A stretch of 64,000 bases of DNA from Paragorgia papillata (lineage: Eukaryota; Cnidaria; Anthozoa; Scleralcyonacea; Coralliidae), in assembly GCA_035771165.1 (NCBI GenBank), contig JAWNZC010000414.1, positions 121,001 through 185,000 of the forward strand. Reading direction: 5' to 3'. The position numbers were made by a program, and so were the translations under genes. The notes under the pieces were generated by a model that saw only the letters and a program-made list of their open reading frames with translations, was not told where the DNA came from and did no database searches. Within the stretch, counting starts at the first letter, position 1, and each line of letters starts with the position of its first letter. This document shows, piece after piece, positions 16,590 through 54,711 of the stretch.

Positions 16590-16993
16590 TGGTGGCTGGG
16601 GAGGAAATCCAGTCCTCTTCAGCCACTAATGAGACTGGCAATTACAATCGTTTGGTTTCAGCCACAAACATTGGGGGTTCAAATTATGCCAACATAGAGA
16701 TTGAGGGTGAAATTGGGGGTCACCATTGCACTTGGTTAGTGGATACAGGAACCCAGATTAGTGTTATACATGAGTCATTAGCAGCATCTGCCAGAGGGTC
16801 CAAGGTGAGTTGTCAATTTGTACCCCATACTGTGGATGGTTCTGGGATGGGCACAGTTTATGATTTAGTCACTGATTGTCAAGTAGGTGATCAGTACATT
16901 CAGCAACATCGGTTCACAGTGGTTAAACAGTCAACATACCCCACAATTATTGGCATGGATCTTTTGCCTCGTCTAAAGATGCATTGTCAATAG
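16523..16993 (+). CDS. Aspartic protease segment of pol
   Basis: Contains WLVDTGTQISVIHE, the retroviral-type D-T-G active site in its hydrophobic context, followed by VVKQSTYPTIIGMDLLPRL, the usual flap-to-end segment. It overlaps gag in another frame and ends at a stop at 16991-16993. The linker to RT (16994-17138) is decayed. Confidence 0.75.
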   Translation: MLKAWAQSCPMYSLFSTAAGKLVVAGEEIQSSSATNETGNYNRLVSATNIGGSNYANIEIEGEIGGHHCTWLVDTGTQISVIHESLAASARGSKVSCQFVPHTVDGSGMGTVYDLVTDCQVGDQYIQQHRFTVVKQSTYPTIIGMDLLPRLKMHCQ

Positions 16994-17138
16994 GCCGTCA
17001 AGTATACCTTCCCAGTAAGGAAAAATTTCCAGACCAGGCCAGTGGTACCGGAGATACCATTGCCTCTCCTCAGATATGTCGAATACATGTATCAGCAGCA
17101 GTAACTGTGCCATCTAGATCAATGCAGGTGGTGGTACA

Positions 17139-18603: not shown

Positions 18604-18810
18604 TTACAGGATTAAATTGTAAGCGATTTACAAGTTACTTAAACTATTTTATGCTTATACTAGGATAATTTTATTTACAAAAATATAAATATATATATAT
18701 ATATACTGTGTGAAAGGAAGATATTATAAGTTAAAATTATTGTTACTATTTATATCTATATGTTAAAATTTTTTAGCATCTATCAGTAACATCTTTTTTT
18801 GCATCTATTC
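18565..18810. mobile_element. ~240-bp AT-rich insertion in RNase H (probable antisense LINE/SINE tail)
   Basis: The RNase H protein sequence breaks at TPTENNY and resumes with SATEKDCLAVVW just after the insert. The insert begins TTATTTATTTATTT. Read on the opposite strand it therefore ends in an (AAAT)n tail, as LINE/SINE 3' ends do. It also includes an (AT)n tract at 18688-18704. Confidence 0.65.
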
Positions 18811-25920: not shown

Positions 25921-25927
25921 TGCCATG

Positions 25928-26545
25928 AGTAGTATTATAGAGGCCGATCGAGCCTCTTTTTTAAGGCGGCGCTAGGCGGCACTCATTAATATTCAGGAGG
26001 CGTTCTCATTAATATTCAGGCGGCGTTCTCATTAGTATTCAGTCCCATGTGGCTACGGAAGTAATTAGTGTTCAGTGTGACGCACGGTGTGACGCACGGT
26101 GTGACGCACGGTGTGACGCCCTGAAGTAATGTGGTTGGTGATATAAGCCCAGTGTTGTCGTCCAGTCAATTACTTTCATACATTGTTTCACTCGTGGTTT
26201 CTGGAGTTCTCACATGAAAAGAACGATTTTAAGCGTCGAAATATAAACTAAAGGCAAAGCGATTTATTACTTTGAAAGCGTTGCTACGCTTTCTGTTACT
26301 AAGTGTGATATTTGCATATTTATCCTCAGTGCACGTGCAGGATACAAAAGAGAAACTCATTAAGGGTCATTAAGAGGATTAAGCGCTTGGGCAAGTCTAG
26401 TCAAGAGAGTCATTAGCAACACGCGTACATGTAATACAGAATTTAAAATATTTTATTGAGAAATATATCTTTACACAAAAAACTCTTGATTATTTAGTGA
26501 TCTATCGGTAACACTAGCATATGGGCATACAGTACATCTTATAAT
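25928..26545. repeat. Outer arm block of element 1 with short tandem repeats
   Basis: Contains ATTAATATTCAGG(A/C)GGCG repeats (about 25985-26042), then three copies of GGTGTGACGCAC (about 26087-26118), then a copy of the shared module. All are mirrored at 37690-38339. Sister element 2 lacks this block: its terminus corresponds to the inner ACCCCCC...GGGATGCCGCC boundary at 26550-26620. Confidence 0.65.
26219..26408 (+). repeat. Shared module, copy 1
   Basis: Runs from GAACGATTTTAAGCGTCG through AAAGCGTTGCTACGCTTT, GATATTTGCATATTTATCC, GTGCACGTGCAGGATACAAA and GATTAAGCGCTTGGGCAAGT. Directly repeated at 27085-27275. Inverted copies are at 31262-31470 and 37845-38030. A shortened version occurs in element 2 (51065-51175 and 53805-53905). 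Confidence 0.8.
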
Positions 26546-26551
26546 CCGATA

Positions 26552-26581
26552 CCCCCCCCCCCCCCCCCCCCCCCCCCCCCA
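26552..26581. repeat. C homopolymer, ~30 bp
   Basis: Poly-C in the left arm. The mirrored position of the right arm (about 37683-37690) has only five G, so this run expanded, or collapsed in the partner, after the arms formed. Confidence 0.85.
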
Positions 26582-27084
26582 CCCCCACTCTGGCGTCCAA
26601 AGGGATGCCGCCTAATTAATTATTCAACTTTTTATTTATTCATTGTCAGGCTCCTTTGGGACCTCGTAACCCTAATGTCATTAGTATACATTTTATATAG
26701 CGGCGCGTTACGTCATTAGCGCCTAACGCTAGTGTTCCGGAACCCCCTGGAGCATGCGTACAGTAAACTTTAACAAAATAAACGTTCTTTACAAGGAACT
26801 AAAGAGAAATTAGTAGACACACTTTATATTTTTTATCTGAAACCTTGTCTGGAGAATGTAGAGAGTTTTGAACAACCTAAGTGTCTGAATTGGCAGAGAT
26901 AACTTAGCTCGAATATTATTTGAATAAGCTATGAATATTATATTAGGACCGAGATATTCAAACAGAATAAGTCATCCTAGAATCATTGCTAACTAAACCC
27001 CCGTTTATAAAGCAAGTCAAGATATCGTAAGAAGAATTTAAGATAGATTTTAGATGAGGAATCACTTCGAGAAGTCGAGAAAAG

Positions 27085-27275
27085 AACGATTTTAAGTGTC
27101 GAAATATGAACTAAAGGCAAAGCGATTTATTACTTTGAAAGCGTTGCTACGCTTTCTGTTACTAAGTGTGATATTTGCATATTTATCCTCAGTGCACGTG
27201 CAGGATACAAAAGAGAAACTCATTAGGGGTCATTAAGGAGATTAAGCGCTTAGGCAAGTCTAGGCGAGAAGGGCA
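27085..27275 (+). repeat. Shared module, copy 2, next to the ATPase 3' end
   Basis: About 190 bp nearly identical to 26219-26408, placed immediately beyond the 3' end of the minus-strand ATPase gene. The plus strand could read LGVIKEIKRLGKSRREG, and element 2 preserves a similar peptide. It is unclear whether conservation acts on DNA or peptide. Confidence 0.75.
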
Positions 27276-27349
27276 AGTTTGGACGACAAGAATAACAGGA
27301 GACACTGAGTTTAAAAATATTTATTTCACTTTACAAATATGTCATTTAT

Positions 27350-28798
27350 TTAAAACATTTTTCTAGGACTGGGATGCCGACTCATCGTTATAGGATAAGG
27401 TCTGCTCCTGAAATCATATCTAGGTATTCTCACTTTATAAGCATTATGAGGTTCATTCCTGGGAACCATTAAGATGTGAGGGTCTTCGTCTTGACTATTA
27501 TTGACTGTTGTTTCATGTGAATCTTCATCAGAAGAATTTTGATATTTATCATTTTCTTGACGACCATAGTCATCTGAGTCGGCTTCCGAAACTTCTTCGT
27601 CCGAGTCGTTTTCTCCTGAATCACTTTCATCTCCAGTTAACCATTTTTGCAAAGGTTTCGGCTTTGGGTATTCAACAGTTGGAGGAGGAGTTAGAAAATA
27701 TAGTTTAGCTACGCTAGGTTTAGACGGAGAATCTAACGGAAGGTGTTCAAGTTGCTGGGGTTCAGGTTTTTGAGGCTTCTGTGGGGTCTCTGTCAAATTT
27801 TGTATAACTTTTAGTAGCTGTATTTGAAGATTAGTTTGAACTTGATTCTGCTGGTTCTGCAGCTGTTGTTGGAATGTCAGAAAACGATCGAGTTGATTAG
27901 AGTATAGGATGTTCTTTTCATCGGTTGTTAATTGCGGTGTTTGTACAATATCTTGCATTAGCTGTTCTGTATTGTACATAGCGTTGACGATTGGAGGTTG
28001 CTGATACGATTTCTTTTGAATATATCTGCTTATCTTCTGCTGCAGGACGGAGCTATTTTCTTCAGGTAAAACGTTTGTCTTGAGACGATGATCGTCATCC
28101 GTAGTCGGCTTCAGATCAAGCATTAAATAACCATGAGGGCGACTTGTGGCTTCCTCGTAGCTCTTCATAAACTCTTGAACATGTCCAGGATTCACTTGTC
28201 GCGCCAAAATAGAAATTTGCTGCTTATCCCTCGGAGACTTGAAGAGTACGATATAGTGTGCGTTGAGGCTGATGTTTCTGGTTTCCTTTCCTTGGTGAAA
28301 TATATTTTGAACAATATAGATCACTGAGAGATTCTTATGATGGCTTCCCTTGGTAAATAAATTTGCAATGCGCTTATCTCCTCCTGATTGATCCATAAGA
28401 TCATCTAGGACAATAAGGTTTCGCCTCGAAACATCAAGAAAATCTTCCGAGTCGATGTTCGTAGGTATTCCTTCATTCAGTTCAATGCCCGGAATAGTTT
28501 TGATCATCTCAAGATACATGGGTTGCCACTGACCATAACACCAAATGATACGTTCAGGAGGGGGGTTGATAGTTGTTCTTGCATTCTCCAGAAGAGTTTT
28601 TACCCATACGGTTTTACCACTCTGAGTACACCCTGCAACAATACACGTAAATGGATGCTGCAGGACTGTGGATCCATTGACGAGAGGAACTGCCTGTCGT
28701 ATTTGTTTTGTCGATGATCTATGAACCATCTTCATGTGACGGAGGAGATTACTTGAATTAGCGAAAGATTTTCCACAAACTTCACAAACGTATGACAT
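27350..28798 (-). CDS. C2H2 zinc finger fused to viral-packaging-type P-loop ATPase (intact copy)
   Basis: 482 residues, single exon. Residues 3-26 form a C2H2 finger (YVCEVCGKSF then LLRHMKMVH). Walker A is GCTQSGKT at 56-63 and Walker B NLIVLDDLM at 127-135. SHHKNLSVIYIVQN (about 152-165) and NAHYIVLFKSPRDKQQ (about 179-194) follow the pattern of FtsK/HerA-like packaging ATPases carried by Polintons and related DNA viruses. A Q-rich, coiled-coil-like segment and an acidic stretch (about 390-440, ESDSGENDSDEE) lead to a basic tail. In related elements such ATPases pump DNA into capsids; that role is inferred. The start ATG directly follows the arm sequence shared with the other copy. Transcription runs outward from the palindrome centre. 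No stop or frameshift is seen. I do not recall the finger fusion as a standard arrangement. Confidence 0.85.
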   Translation of the reverse strand: MSYVCEVCGKSFANSSNLLRHMKMVHRSSTKQIRQAVPLVNGSTVLQHPFTCIVAGCTQSGKTVWVKTLLENARTTINPPPERIIWCYGQWQPMYLEMIKTIPGIELNEGIPTNIDSEDFLDVSRRNLIVLDDLMDQSGGDKRIANLFTKGSHHKNLSVIYIVQNIFHQGKETRNISLNAHYIVLFKSPRDKQQISILARQVNPGHVQEFMKSYEEATSRPHGYLMLDLKPTTDDDHRLKTNVLPEENSSVLQQKISRYIQKKSYQQPPIVNAMYNTEQLMQDIVQTPQLTTDEKNILYSNQLDRFLTFQQQLQNQQNQVQTNLQIQLLKVIQNLTETPQKPQKPEPQQLEHLPLDSPSKPSVAKLYFLTPPPTVEYPKPKPLQKWLTGDESDSGENDSDEEVSEADSDDYGRQENDKYQNSSDEDSHETTVNNSQDEDPHILMVPRNEPHNAYKVRIPRYDFRSRPYPITMSRHPSPRKMF

Positions 28799-28859
28799 GT
28801 TTCAGGTATGACGGTCAGATAAGAAATGAATATTTTTCTATTGGCCAACCTTGTTTATA

Positions 28860-29680
28860 GTGAATCAACACAATAGTCCTAAGACTATAAGCCTAAGTCC
28901 TAAGACTATAGTCCTAAGTCCTAAGACTATAGTCCTAAGACTATAGTACTAAGTCCTAACACTATAGGACTAAGTCCTAAGACTATAGTACTAAGTCCTA
29001 AGACTATAGTCCTAAGTCCTAAGACTATAGTCCTTATAGTCCTAAGACTATAGTCCTAAGTCCTAAGACTATAGTCCTTATAGTCCTAAGACTACAGTCC
29101 TAAGTCCTAAGACTATAGTCCTAAGTCCTAAGACTATAGTCCTTATAGTCCTAAGACTATAGTCCTAAGTCCTAAGACTATAGTCCTTATAGTCCTAAGA
29201 CTATAGTCCTTATAGTCCTAATACTATAATCCTAAGTCGTAAGACTATAGTCCTTATAGTCCTAAGACTATAGTCCTTATAGTCCTAAGACTATAAGGAC
29301 TATAGTCTTACGACTTAGGATTATAGTATTAGGACTATAAGACTATAGTCTTAGGACTATAAGGACTATAGTCTTAGGACTTAGGACTATGGTCTTAGGA
29401 CTATAAGTACTATAGTCTTAGGACTATAGTCTTAGGACTATAAGGACTATAGTCTTAGGACTTAGGACTATAGTCTTAGGACTTAGTACTATAGTCTTAG
29501 GACTTAGTCCTATAGTCTTAGGACTTAGTCCTATAGTCTTAGGACTTAGTCCTATAGTCTTAGGACTTAGTCCTATAGTCTTAGGACTTAGTACTATAGT
29601 CTTAGGACTATAGTCTTAGGACTTAGGATTATAGTCTTAGGACTTAGGATTATAGTCTTAGGACTATTGTGTTGATTCAC
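28860..29680. repeat. Palindrome centre: AGTCCTAAGACTATAG satellite
   Basis: Dozens of units of AGTCCTAAGACTATAGTCCT and variants, themselves partly palindromic (CTATAG, CTTAGGACTTAG). Orientation reverses at about 29270-29300, where unusual variants (CCTAAGTCGTAAGACTATAG) are mirrored. The outer edges are the two ATPase promoter regions, so the satellite lies between two divergently transcribed genes. The same satellite is found at 51374-51608 and 53210-53600 in element 2. Confidence 0.9.
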
Positions 29681-29741
29681 TATAAACAAGGTTGGCCAAT
29701 AGAAAAATATTCATTTCTTATCTGACCGTCATACCTGAAAC

Positions 29742-31199
29742 ATGTCATACGTTTGTGAAGTTTGTGGAAAATCTTTCACTAATTCAAGTAATCTCCTCCG
29801 TCACATGAAGATGGTTCATAGATCATCGACAAAACAAATACGATAGGCAGTTCCTCTCCTCAATGGATCCACAGTCCTGCAGCATCCATTTACGTGTATT
29901 GTTGCAGGGTGTACTCAGAGTGGTAAAACCGTATGGGTAAAAACTCTTCTGGAGAATACAAGAACAGCTATCAACCCCCCTCCTGAACGTATCATTTGGT
30001 GTTATGGTCAGTGGCAACCCATGTATCTTGAGATGATCAAAACTATTCCGGGCATTGAACTGAATGAAGGAATACCTACGAACATAGACTCGGACGATTT
30101 TCTTGATGTTTCGAGGCGAAACCTTATTGTCCTAGATGATCTTATGGATGAATCAGGAGGAGATAAGCGCATTGCAAATTTATTTACCAAGGGAAGCCAT
30201 CATAGGAATCTCTCAGTGATCTATATTGTTCAAAATATATTTCACCAAGGAAAGGAAACCAGAAACATCAGCCTCAACGCACACTGTATCGTACTCTTCA
30301 AGTCTCCGAGGGATAAGCAGCAAATTTCTATTTTAGCACGACAAGTGAATCCTGGACATGTTCAAGAGTTTATGAAGAGCTATGAGGAAGCCACAAGTCG
30401 CCCTCATGGTTATTTAATGCTTGATCTGAAGCCGACTACGGATGACGATCATCGTTTCAAGACAAACGTTTTACATGAAGAAAATAGCTCCGTCCTGCAG
30501 CAGAACATAAGCAGATATATTCAAAAGAAATCGTATCAGCAACCTCCAATCGTCAACGCTATGTACAATACAGAACAGCTAATGCAAGATATTGTACAAA
30601 CACCGCAATTAACAACCGATGAAAAGAACATCCTATCCTCCAATCAACTCGATCGTTTTCTGACATTCCAACAACAGCTGCAGAACCAGCAGAATCAAGT
30701 TCAAACTAATCTTCAAATACAGCTACTAAAAGTTATACAAAATTTGACAGAGACCCCACAGAAGCCTCAAAAACCTGAACCCCAGCAACTTGAACACCTT
30801 CCGTTAGATTCTCCGTCTAAACCTAGCGTAGCTAAACCATATTTTCTAACTCCTCCTCCAACTGTTGAATACCCAAAGCCGAAACCTTTGCAAAAATGGT
30901 TAACTGGAGATGATTAAGTTAAAAGTGATTCAGGAGAAAACGACTCGGACGAAGAAGTTTCGGAAGCCGACTCAGATGACTATGGTCGTCAAAAAAATGA
31001 TAAATATCAAAATTCTTCTGATGAAGATTCACATGAAACAACAGTCAATAATAGTCAAGACGAAGACCCTCACATCTTAATGGTTCCCAGGAATGAACCT
31101 CATAATGCTTATAAAGTGAGAATACCTAAATATGATTTCAGGAGCAGACCTTATCCTATAACGATGAGTCGGCATCCCAGTCCTAGAAAAATGTTTTAA
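29742..31199 (+). pseudogene. Right-arm copy of the ZnF-ATPase gene, two nonsense mutations
   Basis: Collinear with the intact copy (27350-28798) in mirror orientation. It keeps the zinc finger, then has TAG at 29844-29846 where the intact gene has Gln35. After that the frame is open through Walker A, Walker B and the Q-rich region to a TAA at 30915-30917, where three extra codons (a 9-bp insertion) also occur in the acidic segment. Beyond it the frame matches to the natural stop at 31197-31199. Most differences are single substitutions. AATAAA at 31224 could serve for polyadenylation. Confidence 0.88.
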
Positions 31200-32337
31200 A
31201 TAAATGACATATTTGTAAAGTGAAATAAATATTTTTAAACTCAGTGTCTCCTGTTATTCTTGTCGTCCAAACTTGCCCTTCTCGCCTAGACTTGCCTAAG
31301 CGCTTAATCTCCTTAATGACCCCTAATGAGTTTCTCTTTTGTATCCTGCACGTGCACTGAGGATAAATATGCAAATATCACACTTAGTAACAGAAAGCGT
31401 AGCAACGCTTTCAAAGTAATAAATCGCTTTGCCTTTAGTTCATATTTCGACACTTAAAATCGTTCTTTTCTCGACTTCTGGAGGTGATTCCTCATCTAAA
31501 ATCTATCTTAAATTCTTCTTACGATATCTTGACTTGCTTTATAAACGGGGGTTTAGTTAGCAATGATTCTAGGATGACTTCCTCTGTTTGAATATCTAGG
31601 TCCTAATATAATATTCATAGCTTATTCAAATAATATTCGAGCTAAGTTATCTCTGCCAATTCAGACACTTAGGTTGTTCAAAAATCTCTACATTCCTCCA
31701 GACAAGGTTTCAGATAAAAAATATAAAGTGTGTCTACTAATTTCTCTTTAGTTCCTTGCAAAGAACGTTTATTTTGTTAAAGTTTACTGTACGCATGCTC
31801 CAGGGGGTTCCGGAACACTAGGGTTAGGCGCTAATGACGTAACGCGCCGCTATATAAAATGCATACTAATGACATTAGGGTTAGGAGGTCCCAAAGGGAA
31901 AGCGCTAATGGCCATACCGTGAATCACCTTGAGCCAGCGGTCGCATGATATTGTCAGCGGATTTATTACTAGTTTCTGTGTTAGCATCACGCGAATACAG
32001 TCGACGAAGCATGGACGAGGTCAGTATAAAAACGGACACATGTCCGAAATGGAAACATCTCCTACCTATATAAACTCTATTAGACTTCTACAGCTAAGTA
32101 CTAAACAAACGTTTTAGCATAAATGTGGGTAAGTTACTTTAAATCGTGGCTTATGTGGGTTTCTTTATAATTTATTTGTATTTGCGGTAATTTGCCTAGT
32201 TGGGAGTCCTTGGGACCTCGTGTCCGTCCGTTCACCTTTATCAAACTCATCTTTTTCTGTTTGTAATGTATTATGTATTGTGATCTGCTGTTATTATTGT
32301 AGTACTGTATTACTTAGTGAGTTTCATTAAAGCTTCT

Positions 32338-32558
32338 GCTATTATTATTATTACTATTATTATTATTTTATATTATTATTATTACTATTATTATTATTTA
32401 TATTATTATTATTATTACTATTTATATTATTATTATTATTTATATTATTACTATTATTATTTATATTATTATTATTATTATTACTATTATTATTATTATT
32501 ATTACTATTATTATTTATATTATTATTATTACTATTATTATTATTATTATTATTACTA

Positions 32559-32589
<31 letters not shown>

Positions 32590-32625
32590 TATTATTTATA
32601 TTATTATTATTATTACTATTATTAT
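32338..32625. repeat. (TTA)n/(ATT)n microsatellite, left of the LINE
   Basis: Nearly 290 bp of TTA units with TATT interruptions. It abuts the 5' end of the LINE fragment. Confidence 0.95.
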
Positions 32626-32629
32626 ATGG

Positions 32630-35320
32630 TCAGCAGGAAAGTTTAAACAGCTAATATCGGAAGGAAAATGTATTCAAAGCCATTTGTCCTCGAACTATAC
32701 CTCACATAACGAAATCAACCACATTGCGAAGGGCTTTAATCGTTTAATGCTCCAAGGCAAAATACGTCAGGCGGTACGTCTTATTTCTATTGCAAATCAA
32801 AGGGGTGTTATTGGATCCTGACTTTCTAATACCAACAGGTGAAGATGAAGATGGAAATATTAAGTGGAAAACAACTAGAGAAATTCTCATTGAAAAGCAT
32901 CCTGTGAGCAAGATTCCAAGCCCTGATATTCTTTTACCCACCACAGATTCTGAGGAGAGTCACTACGATCCAATCATATTTGAAGGTATTACAGGCGAAG
33001 TAATAAAGGAAACTGCCAATAAGATCCAAGGTTCAGCTGGCCCATCAGGTGTTGATGCTTACCTGTGGCGTCGTTTCTGTTTGTCATTTAAAACCGCCTC
33101 CACCGACCTGTGCAACGCCCTTAGTGGAGTAGCAAGATGCTTGTGTACTTCAGTTGTTGACCCAGAAGGTTTATCAGCGTTTGTAGCATGCATGCAGATT
33201 AATCCCTTTGGATAAAAATCCTGGTGTACGTCCGATTGGGGTCGGAGAAGTACCAAGACGTATAATTTGCAAGTCCATCCTCAGAATAGTGCGAGATGAT
33301 GTACAGAAAGCAGTTGGGCCTTTACAGACTTGTGCGGGCTATGAAGCTGGATGTGAGGCGGCAGTTCATGCTATAAATGAGATAATGGATTCTGACGAAT
33401 GTGAAGCAATATTATTGGTCGATGCTACAAATGCATTTAACACTTTAAATCGAAAGGCAGCTCTCCATAATATTCAAGTCATATGTCCAACAACATCGAC
33501 CATCTTAAACAATACTTACCAGGCCCCTGTGAGGATGTTTGTTGTTGGAGGAGGAGAAATTTTATCAACTGAAGGAACAACTCAAGGTGATCCCTTAGCT
33601 ATGGCGATGTATGGTTTGGCAATAACTCCACTGATCAAAAGTTTAAAGGCAGAAGAACCCGATGCAAGTCAAGTATGGTTTGCAGACAACTCTACTGGTG
33701 CAGGAAAGTTAGAAGCGCTTGGGCGTTGGTGGCAACATCTTAAACTTGTCGGGCCGGATTTGGCTATCTACCAAATGCCAGTAAGACGACACTGGTGGTT
33801 AAAGAGGAATACCACGAACAGGCAAAAGTTCTATTTAGAGACACCGACATTAAGATCACCACCTTGGGTCACAAAATGCTTGGTTCTGCGTGTGGCAAAC
33901 ATTCATTTGTAGAAGAATTTGTAAAGATGAAAGTAGAAGAATGGAAAGAAGAAATCCTGACGCTATCGAAAATTGCAGAAATGTATCCGCATGCTGCATA
34001 TGCTGCCTTTTCTCATTCCATTATTGGGAAATGGCAATATGTTATGCGAACGATCAATGGCATTGGTAATCTGCTAGGTCCATTGGAGAATGTAATCAAA
34101 GAAAACTTCATTCCAGCATTATCTGGCAGAGGACCTTGTTCAAATGAAGAAAGAGCACTACTCTCTCTACCTGCACGTTATGGTGGACTCAATGTCCCTA
34201 ATCCCATGGATTGGGCAAACTTTCATCACGAATCATCCATGAAGATCACTGACCCCTTGAAGAAGATGATTATTGACCAAACCACCACGTACAAGAAAGT
34301 AGATCTACGAGATATCAAGGCCAACTTGCGTAAGCAAAAGAATCTCCACCACCTACAATCAGCATCGCAAATCAGAGAAAGTTTGCCCCCAACCAAACAA
34401 CGGGTTATGGATTTGCTGAAGGAAAAAGGTTCATCCTCATGGCTATCAGCTTTGCCATTGCATGATTGTGGCCTCAATCTAAATAAGAGTGAGTTCCGCG
34501 ATGCTCTCAGTCTTAGATATGGTTGGCAGCTTAAAAATCTTCCCCAGTATTGTGTATGTGGAAAAGGTTTTTCGACCGATCATGCCATGATCTGTCCACA
34601 TGGAGGTATGGTCATAGCAAGGCATAATGAAATTTGTGACCTGACGGCCGAGTGGATGAATGAAGTATGTAGAGAAACTGAAACAGAACTCTTGTTACAG
34701 CCTTTAACAGGAGAAATCCTCCTCCCCCGATCTGCGAATAGACAAGATGATGCTCGAGTTGACATCAAGACAAAAGGTCTCTGGAGCCGATTTCAAAGCG
34801 CATTTTTTGATGTAAGGGTCTTCCACCCAAACGCGCCAAGTTATCGTAACACCAGTGTCTCTGCCTTATTTCGAAAACATGAAATGTCCAAGAAAAGGGA
34901 GTACAGTGATCGAATACGGGAAATCGAACATGGTTCATTTACACCTCTGGTCTTCTCAACAACAGGTGGTTGCAGTAAAGAAACGAGCATTATGTACAAG
35001 AGATTGGCTGAGCTTCTAGCCAACAAACGAAAAACATCTTACAACATCACGTTAGCCTGGATGCGGTGCCATATTTCATTTTCATTGCTGAGATCGACTA
35101 TATCATGTATAAGAGGATCACGAAGATCGTCACGATGTGTAACTAACACGAATATAGCAACTGAGGTTGCAGAAAGTAATCTGTTGATTAATTAGTTATG
35201 CAATTCTGATTAACTATTTTTATAACATTGAACAAAATTTTTGAACAGTTTTATAACATTTTTTTATAACACTCAAATGTTAATATTGTATTCTATTTTT
35301 ATTGGATTTTTAATAAAGTA
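32630..35320 (+). mobile_element. 5'-truncated RLE-type LINE between TTA microsatellites
   Basis: The coding sequence begins inside the ORF immediately after the left microsatellite. The 3' untranslated tail (35196-35320, with AATAAA at 35312) runs into the right microsatellite (35330-35755). Flanking TTA repeats on both sides imply insertion into an existing (TTA)n tract, as known for some restriction-like-endonuclease LINEs such as the R4/Dong group. Assignment to a clade is not certain. Confidence 0.75.
32634..35195 (+). pseudogene. Reverse transcriptase with CCHC finger and restriction-like endonuclease, three frameshifts
   Basis: Pieces in order: 32634-32820 (FNRLMLQGKIRQAVRLIS); 32790-33215; 33208-33912, with motif A (LLVDATNAFNTLN) and motif B (GTTQGDPLAMAMYGLA); then motif C as WFADNSTGAGK. 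The usual D-D of motif C is D-N here, so polymerase activity is probably lost. From 33795 the frame continues to 35195 with a C-x-C-x7-H-x4-C finger (CVCGKGFSTDHAMIC). A restriction-like endonuclease core follows (DARVDIKTKGLW, FQSAFFDVRVFHP). Frameshifts lie near 32810, at about 33190-33200 (a CATG duplication) and at about 33762 (one base lost). It would have reverse-transcribed its RNA at a nicked target. Confidence 0.82.
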
Positions 35321-35329
35321 TAATATAAA

Positions 35330-35648
35330 TTTATTATTATTTATATTATTTTTAGTATTACTATTATTATTATTTATATTATTATTATTATTACTATTAT
35401 TACATATTATTATTATATTATTATTATTATTATTATTACTATTATTTATTATTTATATTATTTTCAGTATTACTATTATTATTATTTATATTATTATTAT
35501 TATTACTATTATTATTATTATTATTTATATTATTTTTATTATTACTATTATTACTAATTATTATTATTTATATTATTTTTAGTATTACTATCATTATTAT
35601 TTATATTATTATTATTATTATTACTATTATTATTATTATTACTACTAC

Positions 35649-35681
<33 letters not shown>

Positions 35682-35755
35682 TATTATTATTTATATTATT
35701 ATTATTACTATTATTATTATTATTATTATTTATATTATTATTATTATTGTTATTA
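35330..35755. repeat. (TTA)n/(ATT)n microsatellite, right of the LINE
   Basis: About 430 bp of TTA units with TATT, ACTA and TTTTAG interruptions. Confidence 0.95.
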
Positions 35756-36059
35756 ACTTATTATGATAGAAAATATGTATAATTAAATAAAATAAGTGAG
35801 AAATACTAAAAATTAAATTACTAATTTATAGGAAGCTGCAGTGTGCAGTCTTTCTACCAAAAATTAGAAACATTTTGTGATGAGGATAGTGATACTAAAT
35901 ACGAGTTCACAGTCCCATATACACATCTGCTATTTGCTTAGTCACTTTCTCCTCTTTAATTAATGAGAATTGACAATATAATGGATTTATGTAATAAAAA
36001 TAATTAACACCAGGCAAAGTGTTTGTGTTGATTTCAGTACCTTACTTCTGGGGTTCGGG

Positions 36060-36545
36060 CATTTCCGGTTACCCTCTAGCCTGTGGTCTGTCCCTGACCG
36101 ACTTAGCCTTGAGTTTAGTTGAGTTTAAGCTCTCTTACCTCCCTGCCTTTCCCTCTCTCGGCCTCCTCGCTGCTCGGAATTCTGGCGGTGGGTAGCCCTG
36201 GCAGTGCGTCCTGCCGTGAGACGTTGCTGGTCCACAGGTGCTGCTCTTGCGGGTCCTTGCACTGTTGCCTGCTTGCTAACTGCTGTTGCTTGTGTGGGTC
36301 TGTACTGTGCAACTGTGCCATACAGACGTTGGGGGTCTGTATTTGTGCCCCCTGCTGTTGCACAGTCGTGTGGGGGGTCTGCTAGTTCAGCTGCTGCCTG
36401 TTGGCCGGCTGCTAGGGCCTGCGTGGGTCTGTACGGCCTGCGTGGGTCCGTACTAATTTTCTGCACTATTCTCTCGTCGACTGGTTGGGATATTCCTGTT
36501 GCCTGTAAGAAATTAGATTTTTGTTATAACTTCACTGCGTTGCAG
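36060..36545. other. GC-rich island inside the 5.7-kb element
   Basis: Base composition is strikingly GC/T-rich against an AT-rich background. It contains repeated TGCGTGGGTCTGTAC and TGCTGTTGC-like motifs. Frames on both strands are open because of composition, with Cys/Leu-rich or Gln/Ala-rich translations. No family is recognised. It may be a promoter/CpG-like region or captured DNA. Confidence 0.35.
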
Positions 36546-36702
36546 TAAAAGAGTGTTACTAGCAGGTGTCTCGCTACTCGAGTGTGGAGGTGACCCCCCA
36601 AATATATATTTTTGCAGAGGTTTAATTAATAGCCGACAAATTGCGAACCCCCATCCAATGATCCGTCGTCCCTTAGTGAGGGCTTTGTTGTTTGTTTTTT
36701 TT

Positions 36703-36721
36703 TTGGGGGGGGGGGGGGGGG
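36703..36721. repeat. G homopolymer
   Basis: TTTTTTTT followed by about 19 G. A smaller G run lies at 36865-36871. Confidence 0.9.
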
Positions 36722-37271
36722 AGGCAGGGGCGTGCTATTTTGGTGTACAATTTTACACATGCATATATACATAAACCTGTGGGGTTTTTTAATAGGATTT
36801 AATTTTGTGTCTGAGATGCGAGGGTTTGCTTACTTTAGGGGGGGCTTATTATTTATTTTTTTTTGGGGGGGAGGCTTCTCGGAAGTCTGCGGAGAGTTAA
36901 TACAATAAACTGAAGATACGAACACAAAAAAATCGGCAATAAAACGTCTAGTAAAGTGTTCACAGAACTGTACTCACTGTTTTATTCGGCGTCTTTTTCT
37001 TCCTGTAATTGTGTCTGTCTACACCGTGTTGGCAGTCAAGCCACTTTGTATCCAATATAATGAAAGGGACGCCATCAAATCTCAGTCCTGCATTGCCATT
37101 GGTAGTTTTGCCATCTTCCCAGTGGATGCGTTGTTTTCGTTTTTTTTTAAATCTGCACGAGTAAGTTTTTTTGAAGTAAAGTTGGTATTAAAGTGTTAAT
37201 AATTCATAAATTAGCCAGTGCCACAGCGTGAGCCCTAACAACTCGCTCGAGCGCTGTGGTGGCTATCTTAC

Positions 37272-37443
37272 CTGTTTTGCCAAAGGATGATCTGGACTTG
37301 TAGCAAGAATACTTGCAAGTGGTGTGTGTCTCGAACTCTCTGAAAACTTGCTCAGCTCGTTCACAAGATAAAACATAGCCGGAATTTGGTGTGATTTGAA
37401 CGTCAAAATAATTGAAATGATCGCATTTTAAATCACCCGCCAT
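37272..37443 (-). CDS. First-exon-like frame of the 5.7-kb TIR element
   Basis: Minus strand. ATG at 37443 in good context (GTAAAATGGCG) opens MAGDLKCDHFNYFDVQI, then RAEQVFREFETHTTCKYSC and KSRSSFGKTG. It ends at a consensus donor AAAACAG|GTAAGATAG (intron from 37271). An earlier in-frame ATG is at 37464. The position close to the terminal repeat and pointing inward fits a transposase first exon. A short 'F..fe..T...y' pattern is found at the N-terminus of many MULE proteins. No downstream exon could be identified, so the transposase is truncated. Confidence 0.5.
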
Positions 37444-37608
37444 TTTACTTTTCCCGCAAAACATGATTTGGTTCTAGGCCTAATTTACATGATGTGCGCA
37501 ACCAACGATCCCCAAGCGATCTTAAGTAAGATCAAATACCAAAACCGCTAACATTACCTTAATATCGCGGGCTCAAGGTGATTCACGGTATGGCCATTAG
37601 CGCTTTCC

Positions 37609-38339
37609 GTCCCAAAGGAGCCTGACAATGAATAAATTAAAAGTTGAATAATTAATTAGGCGGCATCCCTTTGGACGCCAGAGTGGGGGAGTATCGGATT
37701 ATAAGATGTACTGTATGCCCATATGCTAGTGTTACCGATAGATCACTAAATAATCAAGAGTTTTTTGTGTAAAGATATATTTCTCAATAAAATATTTTAA
37801 ATTCTGTATTACATGTACGCGTGTTGCTAATGACTCTCTTGACTAGACTTGCCCAAGCGCTTAATCCTCTTAATGACCCCTAATGAGTTTCTCTTTTGTA
37901 TCCTGCACGTGCACTGAGGATAAATATGCAAATATCACACTTAGTAACAGAAAGCGTAGCAACGCTTTCAAAGTAATAAATCGCTTTGCCTTTAGTTTAT
38001 ATTTCGACGCTTAAAATCGTTCTTTTCATGTGAGAACTCCAGAAACCACGAGTGAAACAATGTATGAAAGTAATTGACTGTACGACAACACTGGGCTTAT
38101 ATCACCAACCACATTACTTCCGGGCGTCACACCGTGCGTCACACCGTGCCTCACACCGTGCGTCACACTGAACACTAATTACTTCCGTAGCCACATGGGA
38201 CTGAATACTAATGAGAACGCCGCCCTGAATATTAATGAGAACGCCGCCTGAATATTAATGAGAACGCCTCCTGAATATTAATGAGTGCCGCCTAGCGCCG
38301 CCTTAAAAAAGGGGCTCGATCGGCCTCTATAATACTACT
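37609..38339. repeat. Distal part of element 1 right arm
   Basis: Resumes at the GTCCCAAAG copy and mirrors 25928-26660 through the shared module, the GACGC repeats and the AGTAGTA end. The GGTGTGACGCAC array is present as GTGCGTCACACC repeats at about 38125-38166, with one GTGCCTCACACC variant. Confidence 0.8.
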
Positions 38340-38345
38340 GTCATG

Positions 38346-40199: not shown

Positions 40200-41024
40200 T
40201 TATGGATGTATATGCAAATCTGCCAGAAGGTCAATCATGCTTGGTCTCTGAAAAGGAACATAGGATGTTGATCTTTTCCCCAGTGTAACCATGCTGCTGT
40301 CCCCAACTGTTTGCCCAACAGCTAAAATAATTATACCAAGAGAATATATGTCACTTGCAGGACTTGCTGGATGGCCATTCAAGACTTCAGGAGCTATATG
40401 GTTATACATTTTGGAATATTTCTTTGCAGCTGGGGGACTTGAAATGGAGCATACTTTCCCAAAGTCAATCAAGTATCCTGTCTTGTTTTTTGAAACAAGA
40501 ACATTGTCAGATTTTAAATCACAATGCAAATATCCCTTTTCGTGCATGTGACGTACTGCATCGGCAACATCATAACATACTCTGAACCAGTCTGTGACAG
40601 ACATATTACCCATGGCTTTGAGAAGATTTTTATCATGTAACAGCTTATAAACTGTCATTGACTGCAACTCCTTTCCAATAAACTCCATAATTAATGAGAA
40701 AGGTTTTATGGTAACATTAATTCCAAAAATACAAGGCACCCATCTGTGTGCAAACATTTGTTGAAAGCAGGCTTCCTTATTTACAACATTTGCATCTGCA
40801 TTGGGTAATTTTTTTTCAAGAACATGGATACCTAGCCTTGGATAATGTTTTACATAACATTGGCCAAAGCTTCCAGAACCAATACATGATGAAACTTCCT
40901 GTAGTTCAGCTTGTTCAATTTTTGGGATGTACTTTGCTTCGTGTAATCCTGTAGTACTATAAGAAAACCTAAACAATGTGACAACTGATGTAAATAAATG
41001 TAATTTATACCCAGAAATACACAT
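40200..41024 (-). CDS. Protein kinase domain exon
   Basis: An open frame on the minus strand encodes a near-complete kinase fold. Glycine loop is GSGSFGQCYV (residues 49-58), followed by a Lys pair (EKKL, 70-73) and a candidate helix-C Glu in NKEACFQQM. The catalytic loop is HCDLKSDNVLV (167-177, with Cys in place of Arg of HRD). Then come DFG (187-189), APE (211-213) and SDIYSLGIII. It ends RPSMIDLLADL. A kinase-active copy is plausible since catalytic Asp, Lys and DFG remain. The true exon likely starts downstream of the upstream ATG, after the acceptor TTGTTTAG or TTCTTATAG (about 40970-40985). Any fusion with the coiled-coil exon at 41639-41914 needs a connecting exon, because the phases do not match directly. 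TKL-like is a guess. Confidence 0.75.
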   Translation of the reverse strand: MCISGYKLHLFTSVVTLFRFSYSTTGLHEAKYIPKIEQAELQEVSSCIGSGSFGQCYVKHYPRLGIHVLEKKLPNADANVVNKEACFQQMFAHRWVPCIFGINVTIKPFSLIMEFIGKELQSMTVYKLLHDKNLLKAMGNMSVTDWFRVCYDVADAVRHMHEKGYLHCDLKSDNVLVSKNKTGYLIDFGKVCSISSPPAAKKYSKMYNHIAPEVLNGHPASPASDIYSLGIIILAVGQTVGDSSMVTLGKRSTSYVPFQRPSMIDLLADLHIHP

Positions 41025-41226
41025 TAATTATGTTGTCGAAGAAGAGCATGGCTTTAAAGCCCTTGTAAAGCATTGATTAGTAAGGAAACTTATCCAAACA
41101 ATTGATTATTAATATCTTTTATTTTCAGATTTAATTTAAATAATTGTAGTATGTTTTACTTGGTTTAATTAATTATATGGTCAGTTGGGTTGGGTTACTG
41201 GTTAACTACTGACAGGTGGGGGTTAC

Positions 41227-50262: not shown

Positions 50263-50864
50263 CATCGGAGTAGTAATACCCCCCACTATAGGGATGAAAG
50301 GGATGCCGCCTCATTAAATATTCAACTTATTATTTATTTATTCTCAGGCTCCTTTGAGACCCTCTAATCCTATTATGCATACGTCATTATTTCTCAGACT
50401 CCTTTGGGACCTTCTAACCCTCACTTCCCCCCTAACCCCAACTTTTATCCAACCCCCCGGTATTCATACGTCACTCCCGAATGGTCTCCGACTAATTTCC
50501 GAAGATCGTCTTATCAAAAGGCACTCGCCTTATATCCTTATAAGTAATAGTAATTATCTTTTCATTTATACACTTTACCCTACTGTCAGTCAACACTTGT
50601 GGGATACGTAGACGTACAGACCATGCGTACATTAAACTTTAACAAAATAGACGTTCTTTCCAAGGGGAGAGACAGAAATTGATAGAGGCACTTTATATTT
50701 TTTATCTGAAACCTTGTTTGGAGGAATATAGGGAGTTTTGAACAGCCTAAATGTCTGAATTGGTAGAGATAAGATATAGACTTGAATTAATAGCATTCGT
50801 GAATATCATTTTAAGTGTGATAAGCTAAACGGCCAAACAGTTCTTTACCCCTCTGCTTGGAGAT

Positions 50865-51176
50865 ATGTGCCGAATTGTCGCTTATTTGGCTTTAGTTTAT
50901 AGAGTAAACGATGCCTTGAATGAAGAAACCGTTCGGCAAGCTGTTCGAAAGACATTGAAACACTTTCTTCAGAGGGGTTTGCCAAAATATAAACTGTCAG
51001 GGGTTAAATGGATGACTCGGCTATTTATTAACGTCGTCAAGCATCTTGTTAATGTTGCTAAGGCTGATATTTGCATATTTATCCTCAGTGCACGTGCAGG
51101 AGACAAAAGAGAAACTCATTTAGGGGTCATTAACAGGATTAAGCGCTTGGGCAAGTCTTGTCGAGAAGGTCATTAA
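50865..51176 (+). CDS. 103-residue unidentified frame of palindromic element 2
   Basis: ATG at 50865 follows AGATATGTGCC. The protein starts MCRIVAYLALVYRVNDALNE and has a basic helical middle (RQAVRKTLKHFLQRGLPKYK). It ends within the family-shared module as GVINRIKRLGKSCREGH. The mirrored copy (54108-about 53805, minus strand) carries one extra T near 53944 and is frameshifted. Because element 1 keeps a similar peptide (IKRLGKS) in two blocks, the frame may be real. Nucleotide-level conservation of the module is an equally good explanation. Confidence 0.35.
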   Translation: MCRIVAYLALVYRVNDALNEETVRQAVRKTLKHFLQRGLPKYKLSGVKWMTRLFINVVKHLVNVAKADICIFILSARAGDKRETHLGVINRIKRLGKSCREGH

Positions 51177-51194
51177 CAGTGTTACCATAGCGAA

Positions 51195-51372
51195 ACCGCG
51201 TTGCCGGCTCTGAGCTGCTCCGAGCCCTCGGCTCTTGGCTCCGAGCGACTCCAAGCCCTCGTCTCCTGGCTCCGAGCGACTCCGAGTCCTCGGCTCCTGG
51301 CTCCGAGCCCTCGACTCCTCGCCTCTTGGCTCCGAGCCCAACGCTCTGGGTTCCGAGCAGCTCCGAGCCCCA
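51195..51372. repeat. GC-rich tandem repeat (GAGCCCTCGGCTCCTGGCTCC)
   Basis: Repeated CTCGGCTC..GGCTCCGAGC units, mirrored at 53598-53772. Confidence 0.85.
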
Positions 51373-51373
51373 T

Positions 51374-51608
51374 AGTCCTAACTCCTAAGACTATAGTCCT
51401 AAGTCCTAAGACTATATAGGACTCTATAGTCCTAAGACTATAGTCCTAAGTCCTAAGCCTATAGTCCTATGTCCTAAGACTATACTCCTTATAGTCCTAA
51501 GACTATAGTCCTAACTCCTAAGACTATACTCCTTATAGTCCTAAGACTATAGTCCTAACTCCTAAGACTATAGTCCTAAGTCCTAAGACTATAGTCCTAA
51601 GTCCTAAT
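51374..51608. repeat. AGTCCTAAGACTATAG satellite, left arm of element 2
   Basis: Same unit as the centre of element 1; mirrored at 53210-53600 with a longer array. Confidence 0.9.
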
Positions 51609-51754
51609 TGTACACCGATTATATTCAAACATTTAGAAGCTAAATATTCAGATAAAGCTAGCACAGAATCGTTGCTAAGCTAAAGCGTTTATAAGCGAGG
51701 AAATGGTAAGAAGATAGAATGAGGAATCACTCTGAGATGGTAGCGAATCGTTAT

Positions 51755-53062
51755 TTGGGGTACCCCAAACACCCCCCTGGGGTACCCTGAGGTAACTCCA
51801 TCACACCCCGAGGTAACCCCAAAAACCCCCGGGGGTAACCCCAAACACCCCCGCGATACCCCAAACACCCCCGGGATACCCCCAAACACCCCCGGGATAC
51901 CCCCAAACACCGCTGGGATACCCCCAAACACCCCAGGGATACCCCAAACACCACCGTGGTACTCCCAAACACCCCCGGGATACCCCCAAACACCCCCGGG
52001 GGTAACCCCAAACACCCCCGGCATACCCAAACACCCCCGGGGATACCCCAAACACCCCCTGGGTACCCCAAACGCCCCTCTGGGGTACCCCGTGGTATCC
52101 CCAAACACCCACGGGATACCCAAAACACCCCCCTGGGGTACCCTGGGGTAACTCCATCACACCCCGGAATAACACCAAACACCCTCGGGGTAACCCCAAA
52201 CAACCCCAGGATACCCCAAACACCTTTGGGGATACCACAAACACCCCCTGGGGTACACCACACACCCCCCTGGGGTAACTCCGTCACACCCCGAGGTAAC
52301 CCCAAACACCCTGGGGTGCTTGGGGGTATCCCGCGGGTTTTTGGGGTACCCCAGTGGGTGTTTGGGGTATCGCCGGGGGTGTTTGGGGTATCCCGGGGGT
52401 GTTTGGTGTTACCCCGGGGTGTGATGGAGTTACCCCAGTGTACCCCAGGGGGGTGTTTTGGGAACCCCCGGTTTTTTATGGGTATCTCCGGGGGTGTTTG
52501 GGGTATCCCGGGGGTGTTTGGGGTTACCCCCGGGGGTGTTTGGGGGTATCACGGGGGTGTTTGGGAGTACCACGGTGGTGTTTGGGGGTATCCCTGGGGT
52601 GTTTTGGGGTATCCCGGGGGTGTTTGGGGTTACCCCAGGGTGTTTGGGGTTACCTCGGGGTGTGATGGAGTTACCCCAGGGTATCCCTGGGGGTGTGTGG
52701 TGTATCCCGGGGGTGTTTGGGATTACACCCGTGGGTGTTTGGTGTTAACCCTGGGTGTGATGGAGTTACCCCAGGAGGGTGTTTGGGGTATCCAGGGGGT
52801 GTTTGGGGGTACCACGGGGTACCCCAGGGGGGCGTTTGGGGTACCCCAGGGGGTGTTTGGGGTTACCCCCGGGTGTTGGGGTGGGGTATCCCGGGGGTGT
52901 TTGGGAGTACCACGGTGGTGTTTGGGGGTATCCCTGGGGTGTTTGGGGGTATCCCGGGGGTGTTTGGGGGTATCCCAGAGGTGTTTGGGGTTACCCCCGG
53001 GGGTGTTTGGGGTTACCTCGGGGTGTGATGGAGTTACCCCAGGGGGGCTTTTGGGGTACCCC
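51755..53062. repeat. Palindrome centre of element 2: CCCCAAACACCCCCGGGATA array
   Basis: A dense array of about 24-27-bp units (ACCCCCGGGATACCCCAAAC and variants; GGGGTACCCC palindromes). It switches orientation at about 52310-52330. All long frames here (for example 51956-53068) are compositional. Confidence 0.92.
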
Positions 53063-53209
53063 AAATAACGATTCGCTACCATCTCAGAGTGATTCCTCAT
53101 TCTATCTTCTTACGATTTCCTCGCTTATAAACGCTTTAGCTTAGCAACGATTCAGTGCTAGCTTTATCTGAATATTTAGCTTCTAAGTGTTTGAATATAA
53201 TCGGTGTAC

Positions 53210-53600
53210 AATTAGGACTTAGGACTATAGTCTTAGGACTTAGGACTATAGTCTTAGGATTTAGGACTATAGTCTTGGAAGTTAGGACTATAGTCTTAGG
53301 ACTATAAGGAGTATAGTCTTAGGACTTAGGACTATAGTCTTAGGACTTAGGACTATAGTCTTAATTAGGACTATAAGGACTATATTCTTAGGACTTAGGA
53401 CTATAGTCTTAGGACTTAGGATTATAGTCTTAGGATTTAGGACTATAGTCTTAGGAGTTAGGACTATAGTCTTAGGACTATAAGGAGTATAGTCTTAGGA
53501 CTTAGGACTATAGGCTTAGGACTTAGGACTATAGTCTTAGGACTATAAAGTCCTATATAGTCTTAGGACTTAGGACTATAGTCTTAGGAGTTAGGACTAT
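53210..53600. repeat. AGTCCTAAG satellite, right arm of element 2
   Basis: Reverse-orientation array (TTAGGACTTAGGACTATAGT) longer than its left partner, so copy number changed after the arms formed. Confidence 0.9.
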
Positions 53601-53804
53601 GGGGCTCGGAGCTGCTCGGAACCCAGAGCGTTGGGCTCGGAGCCAAGAGGTGAGGAGTCGAGGGCTCGGAGCCAGGAGCCGAGGACTCGGAGTCGCTCGG
53701 AGCCAGGAGACGAGGGCTTGGAGTCGCTCGGAGCCAAGAGCCGAGGGCTCGGAGCAGCTCAGAGCCGGCAACGCGGTTTCGCTATGGTAACACTGTTAAT
53801 GACC

Positions 53805-54108
53805 TTCTCGACAAGACTTGCCCAAGCGCTTAATCCTCTTAATGACCCCTAAATGAGTTTCTCTTTTGTCTGCTGCACGTGCACTGAGGAGAAATATGCA
53901 AATATCAGCCTTAGCAACATTAACAAGATGCTTGACGACGTTAATAAAATAGCCGAGTCATCCATTTAACCCCTGACAGTTTATATTCTGGCAAACCCCT
54001 CTGAAGAAAGTGTTTCAATGTATTTCGAACAGCTTGCCGAACGGTTTCTTCATTCAAGGCATCGTTTACTCTATAAACTAAAGCCAAATAAGCGACAATT
54101 CGGCACAT
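53805..54108 (-). pseudogene. Right-arm copy of the 103-residue frame, frameshifted
   Basis: Mirror copy of 50865-51176 with substitutions and one extra T in the CTATTTTATTAACG segment near 53944, which breaks the frame. Confidence 0.5.
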
Positions 54109-54711
54109 ATCTCCAAGCAGAGGGGTAAAGAACTGTTTGGCCGTTTAGCTTATCACACTTAATATGATATTCACGAATGCTATTAATTCAAGTCTATATC
54201 TTATCTCTACCAATTCAGACATTTAGGCTGTTCAAAACTCCCTATATTCCTCCAAACAAGATTTCAGATAAAAAATATAAAGTGCCTCTATCAATTTCTG
54301 TCTCTCCCCTTGGAAAGAACGTCTATTTTGTTAAAGTTTACTGTACGCATGCTCTGTACGTCTACGTATCCCACAAGTGTTGACTGACAGTAGGGTAAAG
54401 TGTATAAATGAAAAGATAATTACTATTACTTATAAGGATATAAGGCGAGTGCCTTTTGATAAGACGATCTTCGGAAATTAGTCGGAGATCATTCGGGAGT
54501 GACGTATGAATACCGGGGGGTTGGATAAAAGTTGGGGTTAGGGGGGAAGTTAGGGTTAGAAGGTCCCAAAGGAGTCTGAGAAATAATGACGTATGCATAA
54601 TAGGATTAGAGGGTCTCAAAGGAGCCTGAGAATGAATAAATAATAAGTTGAATATTTAATGAGGCGGCATCCCTTTCATCCCTATAGTGGGGGGGTATTA
54701 CTACTCATCGG

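Follow-up and report, generated by a model that had tools for sequence, protein, structure and literature searches.

Palindromic Polinton derivatives in Paragorgia papillata, their probable snap-back origin, and a lineage that retains a packaging-type ATPase

We analyzed a 64,000-nucleotide stretch of the Paragorgia papillata genome (contig JAWNZC010000414.1, positions 121,001 to 185,000; hereafter the window), which holds two palindromic elements, E1 (25928-38339) and E2. In our reading, to which we assign a probability of roughly 0.72, both are integrated, nonautonomous derivatives of Polinton/Maverick (adintovirus-like) elements that arose by snap-back copying and were mobilized in trans, and the ATPase-bearing lineage of E1 is a satellite. 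Comparisons across the window's own assembly (618 Mb, 473 contigs) showed that, in every palindrome tested, the two arms derive from a single half-element and that most palindromes read were palindromic before or at integration. We further infer mobilization in trans and the piracy of packaging. An earlier note, made from the letters of the window alone, had proposed that E1 is a self-complementary Polinton derivative, and our results support that proposal.

E1 consists of two arms of ~3.3 kb in inverted orientation (Table 1). The palindrome, coordinates, and layout given in the earlier note stand, as do its termini and its GCCATG/GTCATG flanks, which agree at five of six positions. The arms are not the perfect mirror that it described: they diverge by ~1.5% overall (7 substitutions in 707 aligned bases of the outer part and 43 in 2595 bases of the inner part, central array included; ~1.3% without that array), and the right arm is split by a 5713-bp DNA transposon. 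This nested transposon has inverted ends of ~38 bp (GGAAAGCGCTAATGGCC...), is bounded by the 8-bp duplication GTCCCAAA (31888-31895 and 37609-37616), and contains a reverse transcriptase (RT) element between long (TTA)n arrays. At the center of E1, the polarity of the 21-bp repeats flips within the array (28875-29667).

E2, which the earlier note missed, shares colinear segments with E1 and lies between perfect CATCGG duplications. E2 and another palindrome, L021, occupy different copies of a single host repeat; the empty site of E2 can be read at L021, and that of L021 at E2. The counterpart of the E2 end sits inside the E1 arm at ~26549, and beyond it both E1 arms carry an extra end segment of ~620 bp with its own AGTAGTATTATAGAGG end. 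That 16-nt end is exact also at L006, L007, and L010, so that other genomic copies do share it, a point on which the earlier note had made its proposal depend; L007 and L010 are the two bounds of one element (C87) with perfect CATATA duplications. The excerpted text of PMC8097293 gives (AGT)2//(ACT)2 or (AG)3//(CT)3 end motifs and a 6-bp target site duplication (TSD) for Polintons. E1 and E2 both end in AGTAGT...ACTACT, the first of these motifs, and some related elements end in AGTAGG or AGTAGA. Inspection of the open reading frames (ORFs) of E1 and E2 revealed no DNA polymerase B (PolB), no retroviral-type integrase, and no protease gene. Beyond the E1 ATPase, the nested insert, and the repeat-array frames of E2, there was no ORF of at least 120 amino acids (aa), and accordingly we found no gene for a major or minor capsid protein.

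Table 1. Features of the two palindromic elements, in window coordinates
Feature	Position	Strand	Basis or remark
E1, Polinton-derived palindrome including nested insert	25928..38339	.	inverted repeats, ends
E1 left arm	25928..29289 (inner boundary approximate)	.	
E1 right arm, inner part	29290..31895 (start approximate)	.	
E1 right arm, outer part, past nested insert	37609..38339	.	
E1 left end AGTAGTATTATAGAGG, (AGT)2 motif	25928..25943	+	
E1 right end CCTCTATAATACTACT, (ACT)2 motif	38324..38339	-	
GCCATG to the left of E1, presumed target duplication of 6 bp	25922..25927	+	5/6 match with right flank
Right flank GTCATG	38340..38345	+	
Fold-back center of E1, a dyad-symmetric tandem array of 21-bp repeats	28875..29667	.	
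191-bp repeat, outer copy, E1 left arm	26216..26406	+	
191-bp repeat, inner copy, E1 left arm	27079..27269	+	
191-bp repeat, inner copy, E1 right arm	31280..31470	-	
191-bp repeat, outer copy, E1 right arm	37837..38027	-	
C2H2 finger plus packaging-type ATPase, intact, 482 aa, transcribed from center outward	27350..28798	-	
Right-arm ATPase copy, broken	29742..31199	+	
Nested DNA transposon, E1 right arm only, outside palindrome proper	31896..37608 (5713 bp)	.	terminal inverted repeats, 8-bp duplication
E2, second palindrome, ends AGTAGTAATACCCCC, ATPase gene absent	50269..54705	.	
E2 left target duplication CATCGG	50263..50268	+	empty site in paralogous host repeat
E2 right target duplication CATCGG	54706..54711	+	

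E1 and E2 belong to a genome-wide family. Matches to the E1 ATPase filled 93 rows, four of them second pieces, and correspond to at least 89 copies, a lower bound from the best candidates scored. Forty of these copies form 20 inverted pairs less than 12 kb apart, all in the outward (-/+) orientation of E1, and there were no close pairs in any other orientation. Twenty ATPase loci were examined: 18 of the 20 inverted pairs; L039, an ATPase copy between facing E1-type segments; and L040, an unpaired copy among the matches listed. The last two are palindromic too, with partial second ATPase copies. Both ends were read for 15 palindromes (E1, E2, L021 to L026, L031, L033, L034, L039, L040, C261, and C311). 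TSDs agreed at six of six positions in 10 of them, including E2, and at five of six in three (E1, L034, and L039); two had none. Where uninterrupted, the palindromes with both ends read measure 6.0 to 7.5 kb in the ATPase class and 4.4 kb in E2. The 15-nt E2 end, AGTAGTAATACCCCC, occurs 353 times in the genome (reversed control, 0). The presence of outer Polinton-type ends and 6-bp TSDs on most of the palindromes read indicates that these were palindromic before they integrated or became so as they did. At L040 (C65:315000-324500), the palindrome runs past the AGTAG ends into the flanks, so that a larger palindrome encloses the element; an RT-like ORF was recognized in these flanks by eye, with no Pfam RT match.

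A second gene, orf224, is present in 5 of the 20 ATPase loci (L034, L036, L037, L039, and L040). It encodes a cysteine-rich protein of 224 aa with zinc-ribbon-like CxxC pairs (L034:2041-2715 and kin), for which we found no Pfam family (best E value, 0.13; E7 at 0.48) and one homologue, P0243. In L036 and L037 (C280 and C418), a non-LTR-type RT lies in frame with the orf224 start in both arms. The 894-aa ORF of L037 was considered as a new gene and rejected, as it results from this in-frame fusion of the RT to the beginning of orf224.

We then compared the arms of different elements to each other at informative sites. Across 16 ATPase palindromes (120 pairings), 6955 sites grouped the arms by element, 1 by side, and 1 crosswise; these counts are sums over pairs, and the sites are not independent. 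L028, L029, and L037 were left out because they are presumably segmental duplicates of L027 and L036; including them would be expected to yield by-side patterns. L039 and L040, which lack two full ATPase copies, were left out as well. The same pattern held for E1 and E2 over two segments (28 sites by element, 0 by side, and 0 crosswise) and for the palindromes C261 and C311, which differ from each other by ~20% and internally by 6 of 4620 (0.13%) and 16 of 5407 bases (0.30%), respectively (774, 0, and 0 sites; indels, 17 to 0). Within E1, the outer and inner 191-bp repeats are ~4% different, and each copy agrees with its counterpart on the opposite arm (7/0/0). Larger changes are mirrored as well. 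L021 and L023 have 2.2 kb of arm in common at 99.6% identity, yet their outer ~0.5 to 0.7 kb behind the first 55 bp are unrelated, each version being mirrored within its own element. Likewise, the starting base of the RT-bearing insertion in orf224 is identical between the two arms of L036, and so it is between those of L037. Arm differences range from 0 of 1010 bases over the ATPase gene in L021, L022, and L023 to 2.7%. These results indicate that palindromes are built, or rebuilt, out of one half once such changes are in place. The regeneration may have happened a single time in each element, starting from a single-copy parent, or may recur with each cycle of a lineage that is itself palindromic.

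In C261 and C311, which have perfect TSDs (AACATG and GTGGCC), it is the PolB end of a Polinton that forms the palindrome, and the turning point can be read. Set against the native ATPase gene beside L026, C261 follows the native sequence up to CTTATTTCATCAA and from there runs back, as the reverse complement, through the sequence that precedes this point, turning at a 7-nt inverted match (TCATCAA/TTGATGA) with a 96-nt loop, as snap-back at a short inverted homology would have it. C311 has the same junction on the opposite strand. Asymmetric loops are also present in L034 (213 nt), L040 (982 nt), L036 (1256 nt), and L039 (1353 nt). PolB starts ~1.4 kb from the end both in C261 and in the conventional element C70. 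Further facing PolB pairs are located on C273 and C72, and the one at C273:1200091-1211544 lies ~1.5 kb from an E1-type ATPase. In L041, L044, and L045, PolB is split over two ORFs, and its C-terminal ~216 to 220 aa (YFDTDS motif) are separate in both elements, which may reflect an intron, a frameshift, or decay.

The sequence of events that we propose would begin with protein-primed PolB starting at one element end. The nascent or displaced strand would fold at a dyad, either a 7-nt microhomology or, in E1, the 21-bp array, and would then prime itself and copy back to the starting end, giving a one-ended hairpin. Another round of replication would convert the hairpin into a linear palindrome, identical at its two ends, which an integrase would insert with a 6-bp duplication. 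In such a scheme, the information that is replicated would be a half-element, and the arms would become identical at each palindrome formation. PolB and integrase would be supplied in trans by conventional Polintons, the central tandem arrays of E1 and E2 may favor turning back, and, as the least certain step, the ATPase might help to bring the DNA of the satellite into capsids that other elements provide.

The E1 lineage retains one gene, the finger-bearing packaging ATPase, and comparisons between elements point to purifying selection on it. Its C2H2 finger (Pfam, 7.4e-8) and Walker motifs lie within a single ORF, 27350-28798(-), which exceeds the Pox_A32 gathering score (28.6 bits; cutoff, 22.8) and has a B204-like fold, so that E1 carries the FtsK/HerA-type packaging ATPase expected of Polintons. 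The earlier note's call of a packaging-type ATPase is thus borne out, and cellular ATPase identity, which it had named as a possible refutation, is ruled out by Pfam and fold. It had also placed such a gene in each arm; the left-arm gene is intact, and the right-arm copy is broken, with codon 35 turned into an in-frame stop and with another stop brought in by an insertion of 9 bp. Among the 120 matches listed, the only relatives with a named source were from the coral Oculina patagonica (45 to 57%). Searches of PHROGs and of the IMG/VR viral contigs with the E1 ATPase gave no match, and a PDB sequence search gave finger-driven matches, nearly all to zinc-finger proteins, with no packaging ATPase among the 60 best rows. 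The L001 ATPase matched one weak IMG/VR locus, L002, and the L001 PolB matched none. A 346-aa homologue, P0096, has two tandem ATPase-like stretches and matches Pox_A32 and Adeno_IVa2.

We estimated dN/dS from 10 intact ORFs, one from each of 10 elements, in 11 of the 45 possible pairs, and read it from the 6 pairs with dS values above 0.05 (the E1 left arm with L021, L034, and L039; L021 with L034 and L039; and L034 with L039). The finger-plus-ATPase part had dN/dS values of 0.08 to 0.11 in all six (dS, 0.09 to 1.1); the five close pairs, at 0 to 0.46, are little informative. The tail of the protein had values of 0.35 to 0.56 at dS values above 0.05 and of 0.25 to 1.49 in close pairs. Between the two arms of E1, the ATPase copies differ by 15 nonsynonymous changes and 1 stop to 5 synonymous changes, near the neutral expectation of 3.76:1, which indicates drift after insertion. 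Low dN/dS values between elements together with drift between the E1 arms argue that the ATPase was selected while the lineage spread and not after landing. The ATPase of L034 is a mosaic, with a head like that of the window's E1 (dS, 0.09) and a tail like that of L039 (dS, 0.03).

Conventional Polintons that could act as helpers are present in the same genome. Among the 100 of the 353 AGTAGTAATACCCCC occurrences that were listed, we found 28 facing pairs with spans of 2.4 to 16.9 kb, at least 5 of which (C1, C23, C53, C70, and C106; 13.7 to 16.9 kb) enclose a PolB match. C1 (14,335 bp) and C23 (13,661 bp) have perfect TSDs (TTCGTG and AATGTA, respectively). C1 carries an ATPase of a type other than that of E1 and an ORF with a terminal Chromo domain (2.9e-12), which we take, by comparison with known Polinton integrases, to be the C terminus of an integrase. 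Behind the end, a block around AAAGGGATGCCGCCTCATTAA is common to C1 and C23 and recurs in 11 of 13 palindromes compared; it is missing from L040 and from the outer end of E1, where it is internal. It is plausible that the PolB-bearing elements are helpers, acting in trans. The ATPase fragments that we read from Polintons differ in type from the E1 ATPase, to which they are 39 to 56% identical, and the C311 fragment also starts with a C2H2-like finger. Among the matches listed, only 3 of the at least 89 ATPase copies, in two places (C375 and C273), had a PolB match at a distance of 20 kb or less, and no full Polinton parent bearing an E1-type ATPase appeared among the ATPase and PolB matches listed. 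The ATPase on C86 is flanked by a PolB-like fragment with no Pfam match. This locus, L026, is an ATPase palindrome apparently inserted in a conventional Polinton, between the PolB-like fragment, recognized by motif, and an ATPase fragment that has 92 to 95% identity with the Polinton ATPase in C261 and with that in C1.

Because the Polinton ATPases read are of another type, the satellite ATPase may prefer its own DNA, and an E1-lineage satellite with a motor of its own might in this way favor itself. A stronger version, which we regard as less likely than not, is that of a lasting half-element satellite lineage that passes through a hairpin in each cycle and whose finger-guided ATPase steers the capsids of helper Polintons to satellite DNA.

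Alternatively, the ATPase could be a dead passenger, with fresh palindromes arising from ATPase-bearing Polintons and the gene playing no role in their spread. The drift between the E1 arms and the many unpaired copies (49 of at least 89) would fit, but the dN/dS values among elements do not, nor do the different type of the Polinton ATPases and the want of an ATPase-bearing full parent among the matches listed, and we consider this explanation unlikely. Less probable still is that the palindromes are Foldback-type DNA transposons (FB/Galileo style), with repeats grown by internal duplication, arms kept alike by host gene conversion, and the ATPase as captured cargo. Tandem arrays within long inverted arms, the variety of element sizes, a gene-less E2, and end segments swapped among copies all resemble such transposons. 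However, the ends are those of PolB-bearing elements, the TSDs are 6 bp long, the fold-back microhomology lies within a Polinton gene, and by-side patterns are nearly absent from the 16 elements, where unlinked conversion would leave partial tracts. We give similarly little credence to inverted dimers formed by end joining of broken Polinton ends, or by chromosomal breakage and fold-back, without protein-primed snap-back. The central microhomology agrees with this origin, as microhomology is also typical of end joining, but the outer TSDs fit a single integration of a finished palindrome, the two halves copy one half including its private changes as two joined molecules would not, and the asymmetric loops of 96 to 1353 nt fit copying. 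An artefact of assembly, from hairpin reads or from collapsed adapters, would fit the arms that are identical over the ATPase gene; we rejected it as scarcely credible given TSDs on both sides at many loci, differing flanks, arm-specific changes with arm differences of up to 2.7%, and, in E1, the transposon present in one arm only.

Several observations weigh against snap-back copying with mobilization in trans. The E1 flanks match at only five of six positions, L022 and L040 lack a clean TSD, and the outermost end of E1 has only 7 nt in common with the PolB-bearing elements. Pfam rve, the integrase core, was not found in the C1 pieces tried, which leaves a helper integrase only suggested, and the transposition, expression, and packaging of the palindromes are themselves presumed. 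In a tree of 40 ATPase copies, only 9 of the 19 left/right pairs were exact sisters; the others were near-identical young copies or belonged to L027/L028/L029 and L036/L037, whose arms grouped by side. We presume these two sets to be segmental duplicates of one insertion each; if they were separate insertions, then arms would not always be reset. Furthermore, 49 of the at least 89 ATPase copies were unpaired among the matches listed, and the purifying selection on the ATPase could date from a single-copy parent. Lastly, C261 and C311 have one fold-back junction despite their ~20% divergence, and relatives of C261 at 98 to 100% identity are single among the matches listed, so that recurrence at a hotspot and inheritance of the palindrome are indistinguishable, and the shared junction does not prove palindromic inheritance.

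Elsewhere in the window, a Gypsy-type element extends over several frames at 15738-20247 (zinc knuckle, RT, RNase H, and integrase), and a protein kinase-like ORF lies at 40200-41027 (Pfam Pkinase, 4.8e-26).

PMC11071308 describes the core genes of polintons and members from corals and Hydra. E1 and E2 resemble Polinton/Maverick elements (adintoviruses) in their ends, 6-bp TSDs, FtsK/HerA-type ATPase, and the PolB-bearing members with the end of E2 in the same genome, but they are wholly palindromic, no PolB, integrase, protease, or capsid gene was found in them, and the ATPase palindromes and E2 measure only 4.4 to 7.5 kb uninterrupted. Snapback genomes of adeno-associated virus (AAV; PMC8235507) are likewise self-complementary copies of a genome end, either symmetric or, with a loop, asymmetric, and they replicate with helper functions; they are molecules in parvovirus particles, whereas ours form an integrated, high-copy family with Polinton ends. 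By analogy, the AAV snapback genomes appear to be the closest counterpart that we read about. Adenovirus palindromic defective genomes are protein-primed linear double-stranded DNA with a duplicated genome end, and they are not known to be integrated by an integrase; we know of no selected single-gene lineage among them. Foldback (FB) and Galileo, in the excerpts consulted, share the very long inverted repeats with internal repeats. Their ends, target duplications, and mobilizing enzyme, a P- or MULE-type transposase, differ from those of Polinton-type palindromes, and the E1 and E2 ends match Polintons instead. Bidnaviridae, according to an excerpted source, are small viruses with a protein-primed PolB. 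They descend from Polinton genes, are single-stranded DNA viruses that keep PolB, and are not known to be palindromic. Among the top matches in the open-licence literature, we found no paper on palindromic Polinton derivatives, which is weak evidence of novelty. What we judge to be new is the occurrence in a genome of high-copy snap-back Polinton derivatives, with one lineage retaining a packaging gene under selection.

Maverick particles were unobserved as of 2021 according to the excerpted text of PMC8097293. Snap-back families, one of which retains the packaging motor alone and under selection, give indirect evidence that Polintons replicate and are packaged outside the chromosome, and that they have parasites. 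Moreover, the palindromes constitute a datable record of how defective genomes form in a family of protein-primed viruses, a record in which the junctions can be read, and a snap-back origin may explain a class of very long genomic palindromes that might otherwise be mistaken for assembly errors. If there is indeed a lasting satellite lineage, it would be a eukaryotic counterpart of the phage satellites that redirect packaging, and the Polintons of this host lineage would form particles or would have done so until lately.

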